NCBI GenBank assembly: GCA_025964695.1
Contig: JAOPYK010000309.1
Span: 1 to 64,000, forward strand
From: Streptosporangiaceae bacterium
Lineage (GTDB): Bacteria > Actinomycetota > Actinomycetes > Streptosporangiales > Streptosporangiaceae
DNA length: 64,000 nt
Direction: 5' to 3'
Below, in pieces: positions 18,721 through 30,191 of the stretch. A program made the translations under genes and the position numbers. The first letter of the stretch is position 1. Each line of letters starts with the position of its first letter. A model generated the notes under the pieces. The model ran no database searches and was not told where the DNA came from. It saw nothing but the letters and a program-made list of their open reading frames with translations.

Positions 18721-18980
18721 TCCGCACCCCTCCCTTCCCGATCACGCCGGCACCGGCACCCGAGCCGGCTCCGGTAACAAGAGCCTGACTCGGATAGCCA
18801 GGTCGGTTACGCCCAAGTTGGACGATCCATGCCAGTGTCCCCTCTAGACTGCGGGATGGCCAACCGGTCCGCCAAACCGGAGCCCGCGCCGGCCGATGTC
18901 TCCTTGCCATGGTTTTCCAAGGCAAGGAGTGCGGACACCGTCGTCTAACAGCCCCTAGACTGGCACGCCGTGATGCAGCC

Positions 18981-19670
18981 GTGATCCATTTCGACAACGT
19001 CACCAAGGTCTACCCCAACCAGAACCGTCCGGCCCTCCAGCATGTGAACGTCGCCGTAGAGAAGGGCGAGTTCGTCTTCCTGGTCGGTCCGTCGGGGTCT
19101 GGTAAGTCGACCTTCCTGCGACTTGTGCTCAAAGAAGAGCGTCCGACCCAAGGCCATGTCCATGTGGCCGGCAAGGACCTCAGCCGGTTGACCAACTGGA
19201 AGGTGCCCCACCTGAGGCGCCGGATCGGTTGTGTCTTCCAGGACTTCCGGCTTCTCCCCAACAAAACGGTCTTCGAGAACGTCGCGTTCGCGCTCGAGGT
19301 GATCGGCAAGCCGAAGCGCTTCATCGGCAAGGTCGTGCCCGAGGTGATCGACCTGGTCGGTCTCGAAGGCAAACAACAGCGGTTGCCCGACGAACTCTCC
19401 GGTGGAGAGCAACAGCGGGTCGCCATCGCCAGGGCTTTCGTCAACCGACCGATGATCTTGCTTGCCGACGAGCCGACCGGGAACATCGACCCGGCAACGT
19501 CCATCGGCATCATGAAGGTGCTCGACCGGATCAACCGGACCGGCACCACCGTCGTCATGGCCACCCACGATGCCGCGATCGTCGACGCCTTCCGCAAGCG
19601 GGTCGTCGAACTCGAGGACGGCCGGGTCGTCCGCGACCAGGCACGTGGGGTCTACGGCCAGGCGTACTGA
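18981..19670 (+). CDS. ftsE: Cell-division ABC transporter ATP-binding protein FtsE
   Basis: 229 residues, full length. Walker A GPSGSGKS (36-43), Q-loop CVFQDF, signature LSGGEQQR, Walker [10 protein letters not shown], switch His in MATHD. FtsEX couples ATP hydrolysis to activation of peptidoglycan hydrolases at the division site. GTG 18981 starts the product [12 protein letters not shown] as in homologues. A three-codon mini-ORF (ATG CAG CCG TGA, 18973-18984) overlaps this start, and a TAGACT -10-like box lies at 18955-18960. FtsX follows 64 bp downstream. Confidence 0.95.
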
Positions 19671-19734: not shown

Positions 19735-20646
19735 ATGCGAGCACAGTTCGTCTTCCAGGAGATCTGGATCGGTCTCCGCCGGAACATGACGATGACGATC
19801 TCGCTCGTCATCACCGTCGCCATCGCCATGGCGCTTTTCGGGACCGGCCTGCTCATCAGGGCTCAGGTCGACAATTCCAAGAGCTACTGGTACGGCAAGG
19901 TCCAGGTCTCGATCTTCCTCTGTAACAAGTCGAGTTCGAACCCGAGCTGTAACAAGCAGGACATCACCGACGCGGACAAGGCCAAGCTCAAGTCCCAGCT
20001 GCAGGCGATGCCGCAGGTCGGCGCCGGCGGCGTGATCGAGGAGACCCCGGCCCAGGCGTTCGCCCGTTTCAAGGACCGTTTCGCCAGCCAGCCCGGCTTC
20101 GTGCAGAGCACCAAGGAAGGCGACATCCCCGGCTCCTTCCGGGTCCGGTTGAAGAACCCGGAGCAGTGGAAGGCCGTCGCCTCCCAGGTCAACGGCGCCC
20201 CGGGCGTGGACCAGGTGGTCAACGAGCAGGAGATCCTGAAGAAGTTCTTCACGATCCTGGGAGGCCTGCAGTGGGCCGCGCTGCTCATCGCGCTCATCCA
20301 GGTCATCGCGGCGGTGCTGCTGGTGGCGAACACGGTCCGGCTGTCGGCGTTCAACCGACGCCGGGAGACCGGCATCATGCGGCTGGTCGGGGCCTCCAAC
20401 ACCTATATCCAGCTGCCGTTCATCCTCGAGGGAGCGATCTCCGGCTTCGTCGGCGGGATCATCGCCACTGGGCTGCTGATCGTCGCCAAGATGATGCTGA
20501 TCGACAGGCTGCAGGGTTCGATACAGTTCGCCAGTCAACTGGGCTGGGCATCGGTGATCCAGGTCATCGTGGTCTCGATGGTCTTCGGAATCCTGCTGTG
20601 CGCCGGAGCCTCGTTCCTCACCCTCCGCCGCTACCTGCGCGTCTGA
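19735..20646 (+). CDS. ftsX: Cell-division ABC transporter permease FtsX
   Basis: 303 residues. One N-terminal transmembrane helix (~21-43), a ~150-residue extracellular loop with CNKSSSNPSCNK (a Cys pair), then three helices (near 180-200, 230-250 and 270-295) with the FtsX permease fold. The outer loop in this family contacts peptidoglycan hydrolases or their adaptors. ATG 19735 follows GAGGACTGCGAAGGAC. Partner of FtsE. Confidence 0.95.
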   Translation: MRAQFVFQEIWIGLRRNMTMTISLVITVAIAMALFGTGLLIRAQVDNSKSYWYGKVQVSIFLCNKSSSNPSCNKQDITDADKAKLKSQLQAMPQVGAGGVIEETPAQAFARFKDRFASQPGFVQSTKEGDIPGSFRVRLKNPEQWKAVASQVNGAPGVDQVVNEQEILKKFFTILGGLQWAALLIALIQVIAAVLLVANTVRLSAFNRRRETGIMRLVGASNTYIQLPFILEGAISGFVGGIIATGLLIVAKMMLIDRLQGSIQFASQLGWASVIQVIVVSMVFGILLCAGASFLTLRRYLRV

Positions 20647-20712: not shown

Positions 20713-21885
20713 ATGCTCCGGCTCACGGGTCGTGTGTTCCGCGGGGCGGCGGTCGTCGTCGCGGTCGTCTGCGCCTATGGCGCCGGAGTCATGAGCGGAG
20801 CCGGCCCGGTGAAGCGTGCGCCGCAGGCCGCCAGGCCCGGCGTGCTCGACGAGGCAGCCCGCCGCATCGCCGGCGAGGCCGCGGCGCCGGTGCCCCCTGG
20901 TGAGCTGGAACGCGCCGCCATCACGGCGATGCTGCGCCGGCTGGGTGATCGCTGGGCGCACTACTACACGGCACAGGAGTACGACGACGTGCAGGGCCGG
21001 CTCAATGGCCGCTACAGCGGCGTGGGTCTCTGGCTGGGGGCGGCCGAGGGCACGGCCGTACGGGTGGCCAGCGTGCAGCCCGGCTCGGCCGCCGGCAAGG
21101 CGGGAGTACGGGTCGGCGACGTCATCACCGCCGTGTCGGGGGCTCCGGCCACCGGCTGGTCGGTGACCGAGGTCGCGACGGCGCTGCGCGGCCGGCCAGA
21201 CGCGCCGGTGGAGCTCACGGTGCGCCGGGGGAGCGCGGAGCACCGTTTCCAGCTGCTGCGATCACTGGTGGAGACCAGTGACGTGACCATACGGCAGCGT
21301 CCCGGTCAGGTCCGGCTCATCCAGATCAGTGCCTTCACCAGGGGAGTGGGACGGCAGGTGCGGAGCGCCGTGATCGCGGACCCGCGGGGCCACGCGGGCG
21401 GGCTGATGCTCGATCTGCGCGGAAACCCGGGCGGGCTTCTCGACGAGGCGGTGGAGACCGCTTCGGCCTTCCTCGCCGGCGGCCGGGTGGTCACCTACGA
21501 GAAGCGCGGCGCGCCGCCGCAGCGGTTCGACGTGACCGCCCCGGGTGACGCCAGAACCCCGCTGGTGGTGCTGGTGGACGCCGGTACGGCGAGCGCGGCC
21601 GAGGTCGTGGCGGGATCCCTGAGTGACCGCGACCGCGCGGTGATCGTAGGATCGCGTACGTTCGGGAAGGGGTCGGTCCAGGAGCCGGTCCGGCTGGGTG
21701 ACGGGTCCGCGCTGGAACTCACCGTAGGTCGCTACCGGACCCCCGCCGGCCGTAATCTCGACGGGGTGGGAATCGACCCTGACGTGGCGGTCTCCGCCGA
21801 TCGCCCGCCCCCGACGGCCGAGCAGCGCGCACTGGCCGTGCTGCACGGCCTGCTCGCCACGCTGCCGATGAAAGACCGAGGATGA
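20713..21885 (+). CDS. C-terminal processing (S41/Ctp) peptidase
   Basis: 390 residues. N-terminal signal anchor (~9-30), helical region, PDZ domain (~100-185, with YSGVGLWLG and [11 protein letters not shown]) and S41 catalytic domain with Ser294 (GTASAAEV) and Lys319 (FGKGSVQ), the Ser/Lys dyad of CtpA-type proteases. It should act outside the membrane on exported substrates. The ftsX-S41-smpB order is conserved in actinobacteria. smpB starts 4 nt after its stop, so translation is probably coupled. Confidence 0.92.
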
Positions 21886-21889
21886 TCAA

Positions 21890-22372
21890 GTGCCACGTGA
21901 GCAAGGGCGCAAGTTCATCGCCCAGAACAAGAAGGCCCGCTTCGACTACCACATCGACGACACGTGGGAGGCGGGCCTGGTCCTCATGGGCACCGAAGTG
22001 AAGTCGCTGCGCATGGGACGGGCCTCGCTGGTCGACGGATACGCTCAGGTCCGGGATGGCGAGGTGTGGCTGATGAACGTGCATATTCCGGAGTACCTCC
22101 AGGGCACCTGGACCAACCACTCGGCTCGCCGGAGCCGCAAGCTGCTCCTGCACAAGCGGGAGATCGCGCGGATCATCGAAAAGACCAGGGAGTCGGGATT
22201 GACGGTGATCCCGCTCGCCTTGTATTTCAATGACGGCAGGGCCAAGGTCGAGATCGGGCTGGCGCGCGGCAAGAAGTCGCACGACAAACGCCAGGCCATC
22301 GCGGAGCGTGAGAGCAAGCGGGAGATGGCGCGGGCCACTCGGCACCGCGGCCGGGCCCCCGGCAGTGCGTGA
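21890..22372 (+). CDS. smpB: SsrA-binding protein SmpB
   Basis: 160 residues. Canonical SmpB: N-terminal [24 protein letters not shown]-terminal basic helix ([18 protein letters not shown]). It delivers tmRNA to stalled ribosomes for trans-translation. GTG 21890 follows GAGGA (21878-21882), which overlaps the end of the S41 gene. Its RNA partner ssrA lies 2.4 kb downstream, with a lipoprotein gene between. Confidence 0.96.
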
Positions 22373-22429
22373 GGACACCGGAGCGGTGCCGTGGGGGCGT
22401 CGCCGTGGGGTCGAGGAAAGGGACTGTGG

Positions 22430-24403
22430 ATGACGAAGGCCAGGAAGGCGGGCGCCGCGTTGGCCTGCGGGATGCTGGTCAGCACCCTGGGGGCCTGTGG
22501 CTTCGCTGAGCCTTCTCCGTTCGGAACCGTCCAGGACTTCCTGATCGCATGGCAGGTCCAGAACTACACGGCGGCGGCCACGCACACCACCGGTGACCGG
22601 GCCGCTGTGGCAGCGGCGTTGCGGGACGTGCCGCAGCAGCTCGACGCGGCGTCGGTCAAGTTGTCGATCAACAATTCGAAGATCGTCAAGAGTGGCGACG
22701 GCTATGACGCGCAGTTCCAAGTCAAGATCGACCTGGGTGAGAACGGCGACCCCTGGACCTACCCGAGCCAGATGCATCTGCGCCGGGCCGGTACCGGCTG
22801 GAAGATCGTCTGGAACCCCTCGGTCATCCATCCACTGCTGGAGAACGGCCAGCGGCTCGCGGTGGTCACCGAGACGCCCAACCGGGCGCCGGTACAGGAC
22901 TACCAGGGCAAGCCGCTCCTGAAAGCGGTCATGACCGATGTCGTGGGCGTCATCCCCCGGTCGCTGCGCGATCCCAAGGCCACGCTCGACCGACTGGCCA
23001 CGATCACCGATCTCGACCCGGACCGGCTGATCGGCCGGGTCAACTCGGCGCCGCCGCAGGAGTTCCTGCCGCTGGCGACGCTGGAGCAGATCCCGGCGAA
23101 CAGAACCATCACCGCGACGGCCAGGCAGATCCCGGGCCTGATCGTGCGGCCGCGGATCCAGCAGATCGCGCCGAGCATGGCCGCCGAGTTCGTCGGCACC
23201 CTCGGCCCGGCGACCGCGGTGAAGCTGCAGCAGGTCGGCGCCCCTTACCAGCCGGGCGACACCATCGGCGACTCCGGGCTGCAACTGCTCTACCAGCGTC
23301 AGCTGGCCAGCACCCCGACGGTGAAGGTCGTCGCGGAGAACCCGCAGGACGGCAAAGCGCCCACCGTGCTCACCACGTGGCCGTCCAAGGACAGCCCCCA
23401 GCCGCTCCGCACGACCCTGGAGCCCAAGACCCAAATCAGGGCCGAGCAGGTACTGAGGGGCGTGGCGGCGCGGGCCTCGATGGTCGTGGTGCGCCCCTCC
23501 ACGGGCGATGTGCTGGCCGTGGCCAACAGCGGGACCGGCGGCCGTGACCTCGCGCTGGAGGGCCAGTATCCGCCCGGCATGACGTTCGGCCTCGTGTCGG
23601 CCGAGACGCTGTTCCAGCGTGGCCTTCAGGCGAACCAATTGCTGACCTGTCCCGCCACGGTCACCGTCGGTGGTCAGGTCATCAACAATCCCTCGCCGCG
23701 GCCCGGCACCATGAGCTTCGACCGGAACTTCGCCAGGTCCTGTACGACGACACTCGCCTCGCTCGGCAACTCACTGGACGGAGCCTCCCTGGTCCAGGAG
23801 GCGAGCAGATTCGGCCTCGGCCTCGACTGGGGCCTGACGGTGCCCGTGTTCACCGGATCGGTGCAGGCGCCCGTCAATGACGGTGAGAAGGCCCTCACCA
23901 TGATCGGCCAGGGCAAGGTGCGTACCAGCCCGCTGTCGATGGCTCTGGTGGCCGGGGCCGTCGAATCCGGGACCTGGCGGCCGCCACAGCTGCTGAACAT
24001 CCCCACTCCGTCGACGCTGCAGCCGCAGCAGCAGACACCGCTGGCGCAGCCGCAGGTACTGCCGGGACGGGTCGTCAAGGGCCTTCAGCTGCTCATGCGC
24101 CGTTCGGTCGCCGCCGGCACCGCCCAGAAGGCCAATGTCGCCGGTCAGCTGCGGGTGTCCGGCGTGGCGGCGACGGTCGAGTACGACAGGGGCAAGAACG
24201 TCTCCTGGTTCGTCGGGTACCGAGGTGACGTGGCCTTCGCCATCGCGGTCGAGGGCAAGGTCGACGCCGCGACGATCGCGGCGAAGTTCCTCAATGGAGC
24301 CACGGTCAGCCAGGCGGCGCCCAAAACCAAGCCCACGCCGGGGAAGACCGCCACCGGGACCACGCGGCCGGCCGGCAAGACGACCCCCGTCGGCCACCAC
24401 TGA
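22430..24403 (+). CDS. MecA_N/PBP2-type lipoprotein with degenerate transpeptidase domain
   Basis: 657 residues. Lipobox STLGAC after MTKARKAG; NTF2-like MecA_N domain (~25-140: FGTVQDFLIAWQVQNYTAAA), dimerisation region, C-terminal transpeptidase fold (~325-620). All three active-site motifs are lost: the SxxK site reads PPGMTFG (Met and Gly instead of Ser and Lys, residues 384-387), SxN reads SCT (437-439), and KTG reads VAA (579-581) inside the otherwise typical V-x-G-x-x-x-T-x-E...WFVGY context. It cannot be a working transpeptidase; it may bind wall precursors or partners. A Thr/Lys/Pro-rich C-terminus follows. ATG 22430 is preceded by GAGGAAAGG. Confidence 0.85.
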   Translation: MTKARKAGAALACGMLVSTLGACGFAEPSPFGTVQDFLIAWQVQNYTAAATHTTGDRAAVAAALRDVPQQLDAASVKLSINNSKIVKSGDGYDAQFQVKIDLGENGDPWTYPSQMHLRRAGTGWKIVWNPSVIHPLLENGQRLAVVTETPNRAPVQDYQGKPLLKAVMTDVVGVIPRSLRDPKATLDRLATITDLDPDRLIGRVNSAPPQEFLPLATLEQIPANRTITATARQIPGLIVRPRIQQIAPSMAAEFVGTLGPATAVKLQQVGAPYQPGDTIGDSGLQLLYQRQLASTPTVKVVAENPQDGKAPTVLTTWPSKDSPQPLRTTLEPKTQIRAEQVLRGVAARASMVVVRPSTGDVLAVANSGTGGRDLALEGQYPPGMTFGLVSAETLFQRGLQANQLLTCPATVTVGGQVINNPSPRPGTMSFDRNFARSCTTTLASLGNSLDGASLVQEASRFGLGLDWGLTVPVFTGSVQAPVNDGEKALTMIGQGKVRTSPLSMALVAGAVESGTWRPPQLLNIPTPSTLQPQQQTPLAQPQVLPGRVVKGLQLLMRRSVAAGTAQKANVAGQLRVSGVAATVEYDRGKNVSWFVGYRGDVAFAIAVEGKVDAATIAAKFLNGATVSQAAPKTKPTPGKTATGTTRPAGKTTPVGHH

Positions 24404-24745: not shown

Positions 24746-25114
24746 GGGGGTGACTGGCTTCGACTGCGGTAGTCGAGTCAGGTGAAGCGGGTCGAGGGTT
24801 GTGGTCGTGACCTCGTTAATCCTGTGACCACAAACCAATAAGTGCCAACTCTAAGCGCACTGAGTTCGCCCTCGCCGCCTGAGGCGAGTAGCGACTCTGT
24901 CAGCCCGGGAGCGTCTCCGACCCGGGATCTGGCATCGTAAGGAGACTCCACCTACCGGCCCGGTCGCGGGGTTGGTAGGAAAATCAAACAGCGGCTGAGC
25001 CCGTCGGCAACTTGCCTGCGTGAGTGCCGGGGCCGAGAAAACGCCTAGCAGGCTGCACCCGGAGAAGACCTGAATCATTGCCGTAGGACCAGGGTTCGAT
25101 TCCCTGCACCTCCA
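24746..25114 (+). ncRNA. ssrA: Transfer-messenger RNA (tmRNA)
   Basis: One-piece tmRNA of about 369 nt. The 5' end GGGGGUGACUGG pairs with 3' CACCUCC to form the tRNA-like acceptor stem; the T arm is CAGGGTTCGATTCCCTG (about 25091-25107); discriminator A at 25114, with CCA completed after transcription. The tag reading frame begins at GCC 24844 and ends at UGA 24880-24882, encoding ANSKRTEFALAA, a typical ALAA degradation signal. The T-arm and ends fix the limits to within a base or two. Works with SmpB encoded at 21890. Confidence 0.95.
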
Positions 25115-25120
25115 CAAGCC

Positions 25121-25163
25121 GGCCCCTGTGCTAGGCGAGCTTTGCTCGCCTAGCACAGGGGCC
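25121..25163 (+). terminator. Terminator of ssrA
   Basis: A perfect 20-bp stem with a 3-nt TTT loop (arms 25121-25140 and 25144-25163), followed by a T-rich stretch (GCTGTGTTTTCC). The strongest intrinsic terminator in the window. Confidence 0.9.
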
Positions 25164-25190
25164 GCTGTGTTTTCCTCGGGAACGACCCCC

Positions 25191-26826: not shown

Positions 26827-28329
26827 ATGTCCGATCAGGGGGAGCGCTGGAATGCGCCCGGCGGCGATGTGAACGACTACGCACCGACCGACCGTTCGAC
26901 AGGTCCGAAGCCACCGTCCAACGACGCGAATCCCTTCGCGACGTCGGCGCCACAGCAAGCAGCAGCAGGGGTTTCGACGGCCGCGCAGCAGGAGCCCGTC
27001 GTGGGTCGCATGACCTTCTCCGCGGAGGTGGTCGAGGCGCCCGAGGGCCGTACCGACTTCTCCTCGGCGGAGTTCCCCACTCCAGGGTTCCCGCCGCCTC
27101 CACCGCTCGAGCCGGCCGCCTCGGAGTCCGCCACCTCGGCGTTCCCGGCGCCGGAACTTCCGACCACGGACTTTCCGGGGCGCGGGTATCCCGGGCAGGA
27201 CTTCATCACGCAGGGGTTCACCGAGCAGGACTTCCCGGCCGTTGACGCCGGGTTCGACCGGGCTCCCGGGACGGGCGCGTCCGGAGTGCCGGGATCTGAG
27301 CCCGGTGGTGAGACCTTCGGCGGCCGGCACGGCATGCCCGCGGGTGAGGCCGGGTCCGAGGAGCCGCCCGCCGCTTTGGCGGGCTGGGACTCCCATGCCT
27401 TCGACGGCGTCGAGTCGGGTGCCGGCGACAGCAACTACGCCGGGGTCGACATGTCGGGACCGGGTACGCCGCCCAAGCCCGGTATGCCGAGTTCCGGGAA
27501 CTGGCGGATGCCGGAGTGGATGGCGGAGGAGGGCAAGGACGGCGGATCCACCTCGGACTCGTTCGACGCTGACGCGGGCGGCAATCGGTCCCGGGTGGGC
27601 CTGTTCGCCGGTGTCAGCCTGCTCGTGATCGCGCTGGTCGCCTCCGCGGCGGTGTTCCTGCTCAAAGCCGGTGGCGGTAGCAAAGCCGTCCAGCCGTCGA
27701 CACCGGCCAAGGGTGCGGGAAAGGTGGGGAAGAAGACCACCAAGCCCCCCGCCGTCGCGCTGCCCCCGGACAAGCAGCTCCCGAAGTTCGCGGGCACCCA
27801 CTCCAAGCCGGCCGGCCGCGTCAACGACACCTTCAGCGGCCTGTCGTACCCCCGTTTGGGCACTCCATGGCAGGTCCCCACCCCCAAGAGCGGACTGGCG
27901 CTGCTCGGCTGGTCCGGTCAGCAGATCGTGGTGACCGAGAACAACCCCAAGCAGCTCTGGTACGCCCAGCTCCTGAGCGGCGTGCTCGGCCCCGCCGAGC
28001 GGGACATCTACGCGGGGCCCGGCACCGAGCGTGCGGCAGCCGCCGCCTACGCCCGGGAGACCGAGGCCCGGCTGTACGGATTCGCCCACAAGACGAAGCC
28101 GCTGGCCTCCCAGCCGCTCAACCTGAACGGGCACAAGGGCTGGCTGATCAGCTCGTATCTGACCTTCCACCGGGCCGGCGTCAAGGCGACCGGCGACGTG
28201 GTGACCGTGGCGGTGATTGATGCGGGCCGAAAGACCCCGGCGGTGGTGCTCATGGCGGTGCCCAATACCAACAAGAAGCTCTGGCCCGATATCAACTTCC
28301 TGGTCAGCTCGCTGAAGGTGCTGCCCTAA
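26827..28329 (+). CDS. Membrane-anchored protein of unknown function (paralogue of next gene)
   Basis: 500 residues. A long disordered cytoplasmic N-terminus (~1-255; Pro, Gly, Phe, Thr-rich with repeats like PGFPPPP, TTDFPGRGYPGQDF), one transmembrane helix (~258-280), a Lys/Pro spacer and an exported C-terminal domain of ~190 residues (FSGLSYPRLGTPW ... PDINFLVSSLKVLP). This last domain matches that of the downstream gene. ATG 26827 is 7 nt after TAGCCT (26814-26819), again leaderless-like. The inside-disordered, outside-folded design resembles anchored sensor or scaffold proteins, but no family is recognised. Confidence 0.75.
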   Translation: MSDQGERWNAPGGDVNDYAPTDRSTGPKPPSNDANPFATSAPQQAAAGVSTAAQQEPVVGRMTFSAEVVEAPEGRTDFSSAEFPTPGFPPPPPLEPAASESATSAFPAPELPTTDFPGRGYPGQDFITQGFTEQDFPAVDAGFDRAPGTGASGVPGSEPGGETFGGRHGMPAGEAGSEEPPAALAGWDSHAFDGVESGAGDSNYAGVDMSGPGTPPKPGMPSSGNWRMPEWMAEEGKDGGSTSDSFDADAGGNRSRVGLFAGVSLLVIALVASAAVFLLKAGGGSKAVQPSTPAKGAGKVGKKTTKPPAVALPPDKQLPKFAGTHSKPAGRVNDTFSGLSYPRLGTPWQVPTPKSGLALLGWSGQQIVVTENNPKQLWYAQLLSGVLGPAERDIYAGPGTERAAAAAYARETEARLYGFAHKTKPLASQPLNLNGHKGWLISSYLTFHRAGVKATGDVVTVAVIDAGRKTPAVVLMAVPNTNKKLWPDINFLVSSLKVLP

Positions 28330-28436
28330 GCGCGCAAGCCCTGCACGCCGGTGTGTCCGTTCGAGGTTGATTCGTGCCATGCGCGTTACCGCGGACGTGT
28401 GGGACCAGTCTGGAGTTTTCGCATACCCTGCCGGAC

Positions 28437-30191
28437 GTGCCTGAGAACGAGGGGCCGACCCCTGCCGCCAGTTCCTGGTTGACTGGCGCCTACCTTCCGC
28501 CAGACTATGTCGACACCGGGCCGATTCCCACGATCACCGACGACATGACCGCCGAAGACGTGGCGCGGCTCTCCGAAGCGGAGTCGCTGGTGTCCTCCCC
28601 GGCCGGGAAGGACACCAGCGAGCGGACCGTGGGGCCGGCTCCGGGCGCCAACGGCACATCGGCCGCCACCACCGAGGCGGCCGCCGCCGAAGAGGTGGTC
28701 GCCGGTGGTTCCGCAGAGGTGAAGGGGCCTGAAGGGGATCCCCCTGCGGTGACGACGATGTCCGCCTCCTCCGCGGGAGAGGCCGCGAAGAGCGTGGAGT
28801 CGGCCGGGAGTGAACCCGGTGCTGGTGTTCCCGCCGTTACTGAGGTGATGACGGGCGGCCGCGCGGAGGTGGAGAGCGCTGACGGTGGTCCTGCGGCGGT
28901 GACGACGGTATTCCCCCTCGTGGCAGGAGGGGCTGCGGAGGGCGTGGAGCCGGACGGGACCGACGCCGATGCCGAGGTTGGGGCGGTCGCCGAGAGCGGT
29001 GGTAGGGCAGACGCGGTTGCCGGGAGCGTCGACCCGGATGCGGGCGTGGATGCGGGCGTGGATGCGGGCGTGCATGCGGGCGGCGGTGTGGACGATGCGC
29101 CTGCGGGGGGCATTGACGGGGATGCCGGGAGCACGGATGCGGATGCCGATGTGGCGGCCGACGCGTCTGTTGGGGGCGGAGGTGCGGGCGAGGCATCTGC
29201 CGATGACGGCCGTGCCGACGACGCCCCTGCCGAGAGTGGTGATGAGGGCGGTGCGGACGCCGCGACGGGGACCGGCAATGGCGGTGTTGCGGAGGCGGAG
29301 AGCGCCGATGATGCCGCAGCCGTGACGACGATGTTCGCCGTGGTCACCAACCAGACGCCGGAGGACGCTGATACCACGTCGTTCGCCGTGGTGACGGCGG
29401 ATATCGCCCGCGATCTCGATGCCGCTCGCGGCTCGGAGGCAGGCGCCGCAGTCAGAGGGGACGGCGAGTCGGGGATGCCGCTGCTCCGGTCCCAGCGATC
29501 CCGGGCGGTCCTGATCGCGGTGGTCGGAGCGGTGGTCGTGGTGGTCCTGGGCGTCGCGGCCGCGGCGGCCTTCGGCGGAGAACGGGGCAAGGGGCCGGCT
29601 TCGGCGCAGGTCTCGTCCGCGCCGGGTCCGGGTTCTGCCACGTCCAAGGCTGCGATCACCCCCGCCAAGGCGTTCCCCCGCTATCCGGGAGGGAAGAGCC
29701 TGGTGCTCGGCCGGATCATCGACCGTACCGCCCACCTGTCGTACAGCAGGCTCGGCGGGAAGTGGAGCTACGGACTGGACGGTCGCAAGCTGTCCGCCGC
29801 GCTGGGTGTCAGCCGGAGGGGGCCGCAGCTCAGGGGGATCATGGAGGCGGGCGGCGCCGAGTACCTCTCCGCGCCGCTCCCGGCCTCCGTGGGGCGCTCG
29901 GCCACCTCGGCGGCGGCGCAGGCCCTCGCGCGGAACGTCATTCGCGCCGGCCAGTCCAAGGAGCCGACGTTGCGGACGTACGCGGTCGAGCGGCTGACCG
30001 GAGGGCTCACGGGCTGGCTGGCCGGCTTCCAGGTACAGAGCGGGCCCAACGACGGGGAGACCGTCGCCGTCGCCCTGGTCGACACCGGAGCGGCGCGCCC
30101 GGGCGTCCTCTACGTGACGGTGCCGAGGGGTGACAAGACCGTACGCCCGGATATTCGCGCCCTCGTGCAGTCACTCCGCATCGCTCGCTGA
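28437..30191 (+). CDS. Membrane-anchored protein with acidic Ala/Asp/Gly-rich N-terminal half
   Basis: 584 residues. GTG 28437 lies 7 nt after TACCCT (28424-28429); the upstream frame has poor coding character. Residues ~50-340 are extremely rich in Ala, Gly, Asp, Glu and Val, with tandem DAGVDAGVDAGVHAG units; a transmembrane helix follows (~358-382), then an exported domain (HLSYSRLGGKWSYG ... RPDIRALVQSLRIAR) homologous to the C-terminal domain of the preceding gene. Tandem duplication is likely, with the intracellular halves diverging freely. Function unknown. Confidence 0.72.
   Translation: MPENEGPTPAASSWLTGAYLPPDYVDTGPIPTITDDMTAEDVARLSEAESLVSSPAGKDTSERTVGPAPGANGTSAATTEAAAAEEVVAGGSAEVKGPEGDPPAVTTMSASSAGEAAKSVESAGSEPGAGVPAVTEVMTGGRAEVESADGGPAAVTTVFPLVAGGAAEGVEPDGTDADAEVGAVAESGGRADAVAGSVDPDAGVDAGVDAGVHAGGGVDDAPAGGIDGDAGSTDADADVAADASVGGGGAGEASADDGRADDAPAESGDEGGADAATGTGNGGVAEAESADDAAAVTTMFAVVTNQTPEDADTTSFAVVTADIARDLDAARGSEAGAAVRGDGESGMPLLRSQRSRAVLIAVVGAVVVVVLGVAAAAAFGGERGKGPASAQVSSAPGPGSATSKAAITPAKAFPRYPGGKSLVLGRIIDRTAHLSYSRLGGKWSYGLDGRKLSAALGVSRRGPQLRGIMEAGGAEYLSAPLPASVGRSATSAAAQALARNVIRAGQSKEPTLRTYAVERLTGGLTGWLAGFQVQSGPNDGETVAVALVDTGAARPGVLYVTVPRGDKTVRPDIRALVQSLRIAR

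Follow-up and report, generated by a model that had tools for sequence, protein, structure and literature searches.

The window, by which we mean the whole stretch of 64,000 nucleotides that was analysed, carries on its forward strand an intact open reading frame (22430-24403) with an ATG start, whose 657-residue product is a lipoprotein that we describe as a pseudo-transpeptidase on the basis of the reading-frame listing, Pfam, alignment and a predicted structure. A second in-frame start, GTG at 22391, lies upstream of this ATG. The protein begins with a predicted signal peptide (22430-22498, + strand) containing the lipobox TLGAC, and the cysteine of this lipobox, Cys23 (codon 22496-22498), is kept in at least 90% of 43 aligned homologues; a lipoprotein signal with its cysteine near residue 23 is likewise a feature of mycobacterial PBP-lipo. 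Three domains follow on the same strand, all above the Pfam cut-offs and in the order PF05223, PF03717 and PF00905, namely MecA_N (residues 32-141, 22523-22852; E 8.6e-11, 42.6 bits against a cut-off of 22), the PBP_dimer or pedestal domain (residues 148-305, 22871-23344; E 9.6e-9, 36.3 bits against 24.4) and the transpeptidase domain (Pfam residues 350-611, 23477-24262; E 4.1e-19, 69.4 bits against 22.1). A preliminary description of this DNA had recognised a MecA_N plus transpeptidase architecture, both parts of which are found by Pfam, and had missed the PBP_dimer domain. Against the NCBIfam equivalog for mecA (the PBP2a-type beta-lactam-insensitive transpeptidase) the window protein scores 36.6 bits, below the cut-off of 750.

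The genes around it lie on the same strand. Upstream stand ftsE (18909-19670 as listed, the true start probably lying further in), ftsX (19735-20646), a gene for an S41-type peptidase with a PDZ-like part (20713-21885; the family name was judged from the sequence alone) and smpB (21890-22372), which ends 57 bases before the PBP gene; downstream, ssrA, the tmRNA gene (24746-25117), starts 342 bases past it. Directly beyond ssrA, a hairpin of 20 perfectly matched pairs followed by a T-rich tail (25120-25164) is likely to be the terminator of the tmRNA gene, judging from its sequence, while a promoter scan gave nothing exceeding shuffles. Further downstream, 26827-30191 encode a tandem pair of long proteins that resemble each other in their C-terminal domains and have a membrane helix and N-terminal halves of low complexity.

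Loss of the catalytic motifs and its distribution

Alignment with active homologues places M384-T-F-G387 (23579-23590, + strand) at the SxxK site, S437-C-T439 (23738-23746, + strand) at the SxN site and V579-A-A581 (24164-24172, + strand) at the KTG site, while PPG, VxG and WFVGY are intact. The positioning of these motifs is not in doubt, since the flanking PPG, F386, C438, T440 and WFVGY are common to the active proteins, and the alignment therefore bears out the preliminary description, which had reported the replacement of the catalytic motifs amid intact fold residues; its account of the SxN motif holds for the asparagine, which is gone, and not for the serine, which the window protein retains as S437. 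The same loss extends across 119 sequences from the window's family and a sister family, a set that includes duplicates and comes to 86 sequences once those at least 85% alike are removed, and which we compared with 80 active homologues drawn from other lineages or present as paralogues in the same genomes. The lysine of SxxK occurs in 0/119 of the dead proteins and in 80/80 of the active ones, the latter by construction as the active set was picked by this residue; the remaining three counts are free of that choice, and comprise the KTG lysine (0/119 against 79/80), the SxxK serine (6/119 against 79/80) and the SxN asparagine (2/119 against 80/80). As read from the alignment, the motif loss is far beyond chance. 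Within the dead group the three former catalytic sites vary freely.

Several individual sequences depart from the general pattern. Two dead proteins (L218 and L223) keep the SxN asparagine in the form FLCNVGF, with SxxK and KTG gone, and three others (L018, L026 and L219) have QTG at the KTG position; to judge from these residues, they represent different stages of decay. A protein of the sister family (L118/L006) keeps the nucleophilic serine (PPGSVFQ) and not the lysine. Outside the order, a homologue in genome G052 (L182) has TAFK for STFK and TTG for KTG, and its motifs are possibly a second, independent drift away from the standard ones.

In a search of 60 relatives, homologues were present in 36/36 other genomes of the window's family and also in the sister family, and all of those aligned were dead, whereas the motifs of homologues from another family of the same order (f3) and from other families of the class aligned as intact. 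A scan of named genomes gave 80 loci, nearly all in named Streptosporangiales genera and mostly in Actinomadura (the others being Actinoallomurus, Thermomonospora, Spirillospora, Actinocorallia, Planotetraspora, Sphaerisporangium, Planobispora, Microbispora and Herbidospora), and 80/80 were dead. A class-wide draw added five dead members, which all belong to the window's family, and 24 intact ones, none of which does. The gene is carried by 199/200 genomes drawn from the window's family, representing 67/68 genera, and in the sole exception (G161) the contig stops 195 bases past smpB, so that no gene loss is shown there. A single-genome artefact or a pseudogene is ruled out by the 119 relatives with open frames together with the purifying selection described below.

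The dead proteins form one clade with support of 100/100, and every active homologue falls outside it, in a maximum-likelihood tree from which the motif columns were left out and whose active members were paralogues from the same genomes and homologues from the order and the wider class; catalysis was thus probably lost once, as far as the sequences allow this to be read. Inside the family we found no orthologue with an intact Ser/Lys pair, all 119 dead-clade sequences being without the lysine. Among the named species, 80/80 have smpB immediately before the PBP gene and in the same orientation, 78/80 have a tmRNA gene downstream of the PBP gene, 78/80 have ftsE and ftsX further upstream, and 46/80 have the S41 peptidase gene in between; at loci L118 and L119 the tmRNA was not found within the fetched flank, smpB and the PBP gene being in place. 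An intact MecA_N PBP follows ftsX-smpB in family f3 (L039, L050) and in f9 (L041), and follows smpB in f37 (L201). The location between smpB and ssrA, which the preliminary description had called unusual, is on this evidence part of the normal order ftsE-ftsX-smpB-PBP-ssrA. As active copies hold the same place in sister families, the place is an inherited one in which catalysis was lost in situ, and a gene order common to active homologues says little on a new role. These intact syntenic copies are the ancestral state, and do not refute the loss of the motifs. The standing of f3 as the direct orthologue rests also on gene order, because the tree is unrooted and leaves the nearest active group unresolved.

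Predicted fold and shifted constraint

An AlphaFold2 model built with 43 homologues has a mean pLDDT of 89.7 and a pTM of 0.85, the poorly predicted regions being the signal peptide and the C-terminal tail only. Its top Foldseek matches are PBP2a, B. subtilis PBP3 and E. faecium PBP5 (PBP5fm), with E down to 3.6e-33, and VIA-align gives Z up to 40 over the dimer and transpeptidase part. The protein is thus predicted to be a folded pseudoenzyme with an intact PBP2a-like fold, including a transpeptidase domain whose shape survives the loss of catalysis, in agreement with the earlier proposal that the fold had been kept. The pedestal or dimerisation domain is complete across the dead clade (coverage 0.99-1.0).

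Across 25 disjoint species pairs the median NG86 dN/dS is 0.32 overall, MecA_N having the lowest value (0.22) and the transpeptidase domain the highest (0.39), and the true values are probably lower, since NG86 gives too low a dS in G+C-rich genes; by this measure of coding change the gene is under purifying selection. The distribution of constraint along the protein has shifted. When full-length active homologues are compared pairwise, 528/528 pairs show stronger conservation in the transpeptidase domain than in MecA_N; this holds for just 8% of 3655 pairs in the dead clade, in which MecA_N is the best-conserved domain. As sequence pairs are not independent, tree lengths on a fixed topology were also compared, and the ratio of transpeptidase to MecA_N length is 0.35 for the active proteins and 1.05 for the dead ones; the dead/active ratio of these ratios is 3.0 (2.3-3.95 by site bootstrap, on a smaller set). 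MecA_N has 21 positions that are fixed in the dead clade only, the sheet and dimer part has 19 and the transpeptidase domain eight, against 0, six and 24, respectively, that are fixed in the active proteins only (Fisher p 1.4e-8 for the shift between MecA_N and transpeptidase). In terms of residue conservation, the catalytic half has lost constraint and the N-terminal half has gained some. A further 29 transpeptidase positions are fixed in both groups, and it may be that this domain does more than hold its shape.

Active paralogues are common in the same cells. At least one additional MecA_N PBP was present in 35/37 examined genomes of the window's family and in the sister-family genome, and all 28 newly read main-type paralogues from these two families have the catalytic serine and lysine, SxN and a KTG-type motif; G025 seemingly has no active MecA_N paralogue, so that not every genome offers such a partner. 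The main-type active paralogue has a curtailed dimer domain (median coverage 0.20), of which residues 148-246, the initial two thirds, are missing, and this short active MecA_N-transpeptidase PBP (L031 at G000:C230; L149-L177) occurs in most genomes of the family. One PBP function might here be split between a dead full-length MecA_N regulator, which keeps the pedestal, and a short cross-linking paralogue, the two acting as one joint unit. However, G056 and G057, from outside the two families, also carry short MecA_N forms, and a full-length active copy exists in some members of the family (L186, L187); a clean complementary loss after duplication was therefore not established, a reciprocal split of functions is reduced to a possibility, and we regard the joint unit as unlikely.

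A proposed non-catalytic role and its rivals

We consider it rather probable that this exported MecA_N class-B PBP lipoprotein is a pseudoenzyme which neither cross-links peptidoglycan nor is acylated by beta-lactams, and whose place in the wall-synthesis machinery is that of a binding or regulatory subunit. MecA_N and the pedestal would bind either nascent peptidoglycan or a protein partner (FtsX, an active PBP or a SEDS glycosyltransferase, for instance FtsW), the transpeptidase domain would survive as a structural shell, and cross-linking would be left to the active MecA_N paralogues of the same cell. A binding or regulatory role, as the preliminary description had already proposed, is the best reading because the catalytic set is gone and the fold kept, and because the loss is old, monophyletic and held by selection; the scaffold and receptor roles raised there would both be compatible with these findings. 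A link with FtsEX is suggested by gene order, which the active homologues also have. By analogy, a non-catalytic role is made sensible by three precedents: catalytically dead B. subtilis PBP2B sustains division, with activity supplied by PBP3, a MecA_N relative (PMC5656894); SEDS enzymes are activated by the pedestals of bPBPs (PMC8078798); and in PBP2a it is the N-terminal domain that binds peptidoglycan, and it also gates the active site (PMC6858329). PBP-lipo of M. abscessus, for which the catalytic serine is required (PMC9170245), counts against such a role.

The nearest rival is a sensor version of this proposal, in which the protein is a peptidoglycan or muropeptide receptor that binds nascent wall or stem peptides and reports the state of the wall without being a scaffold for a synthase, its binding place being either the MecA_N/pedestal sheet, as in PBP2a, or the old pocket. 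The PBP2a sheet that links the N-terminal domain to the remainder does bind peptidoglycan (PMC6858329), and among the strands that may correspond to it in the AlphaFold model (residues 142-148, 297-303 and 312-317, equated by strand order only and without superposition) R142, A144, V145 and W317 are fixed in the dead clade and not in the active proteins. Against this version, the lipoprotein has no cytoplasmic part and no known signalling domain, and we hold it to be rather unlikely. The relative rate of the transpeptidase domain, about three times faster against MecA_N than in active relatives, could also be taken to mean that this domain is decaying under relaxed selection and that a minor role is left to MecA_N or to the lipoprotein anchor. 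This we find quite improbable, given that the frame is intact in all relatives read, that the 29 jointly fixed positions lie in this very domain, that its median dN/dS, at 0.39, is well below 1, and that its fold is predicted with high confidence.

A different catalysis, through a new nucleophile such as the near-invariant Cys438 or Thr440, would account for the retention of both residues in 43/43 aligned dead-clade proteins. However, the active proteins have Cys407, Cys438 and Thr440 fixed to the same extent, so that these residues are not a new feature; Cys407 and Cys438 more likely form a disulfide, and the free variation of the three old catalytic sites also speaks against a working centre, such that this explanation is very improbable. 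We give hardly any credence to a beta-lactam decoy or sink, an idea which, apart from the PBP-like shape of the pocket, goes back to the preliminary description: with the nucleophilic serine absent in 113/119 proteins and the lysine in 119/119, no covalent trapping of beta-lactams is expected, and the conservation lies away from the pocket.

Comparison with known systems

That some class-B PBPs have a task besides catalysis was already known from laboratory mutants. In the present case evolution has apparently made that separation itself, across an entire large family of soil actinobacteria, over a very long time and in a core gene near ftsEX, and the results suggest that a preserved PBP look-alike now controls cell-wall building rather than performing it. 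The protein offers a natural test case for the non-catalytic half (MecA_N plus pedestal), the part that also gates PBP2a, and PBP annotations, as well as the PBP counts in lists of beta-lactam targets, may include proteins that are unable to bind these drugs covalently. In the literature searched, whose scope left out most subscription papers, we found no natural dead PBP of this type.

S. aureus PBP2a (MecA), B. subtilis PBP3 and E. faecium PBP5 have the same domain order as the window protein and are its best fold matches, with a sequence match that spans MecA_N and the dimer domain; they are, however, working low-affinity transpeptidases with SxxK, SxN and KTG, whereas none of these motifs is complete in the window protein. 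Degenerate LytM factors, such as EnvC under FtsEX, are catalytically dead relatives of wall enzymes that serve as regulators. The likeness is that of a dead member of a wall-enzyme family near FtsEX, although the window protein is near FtsEX by gene order alone, and EnvC differs from it in both fold and enzyme class. Mycobacterial PBP-lipo (MAB_3167c), which we take as a similar lipoprotein PBP by description rather than by direct homology comparison, is likewise a predicted actinobacterial lipoprotein class-B PBP and is linked to wall synthesis at the septum (PMC9170245). It requires catalysis, since the S364A mutant fails to rescue, and it binds Bocillin (PMC9170245), whereas the window protein has no serine at that site. 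The engineered dead bPBPs B. subtilis PBP2B S309A and an active-site mutant of S. aureus PBP1 offer a parallel, in that each still fulfils its structural role without catalysis and leaves cross-linking to another PBP (PMC5656894, PMC8078798). These are laboratory-made forms of a main divisome PBP with a membrane helix, whereas the window protein is a natural, family-wide lipoprotein.
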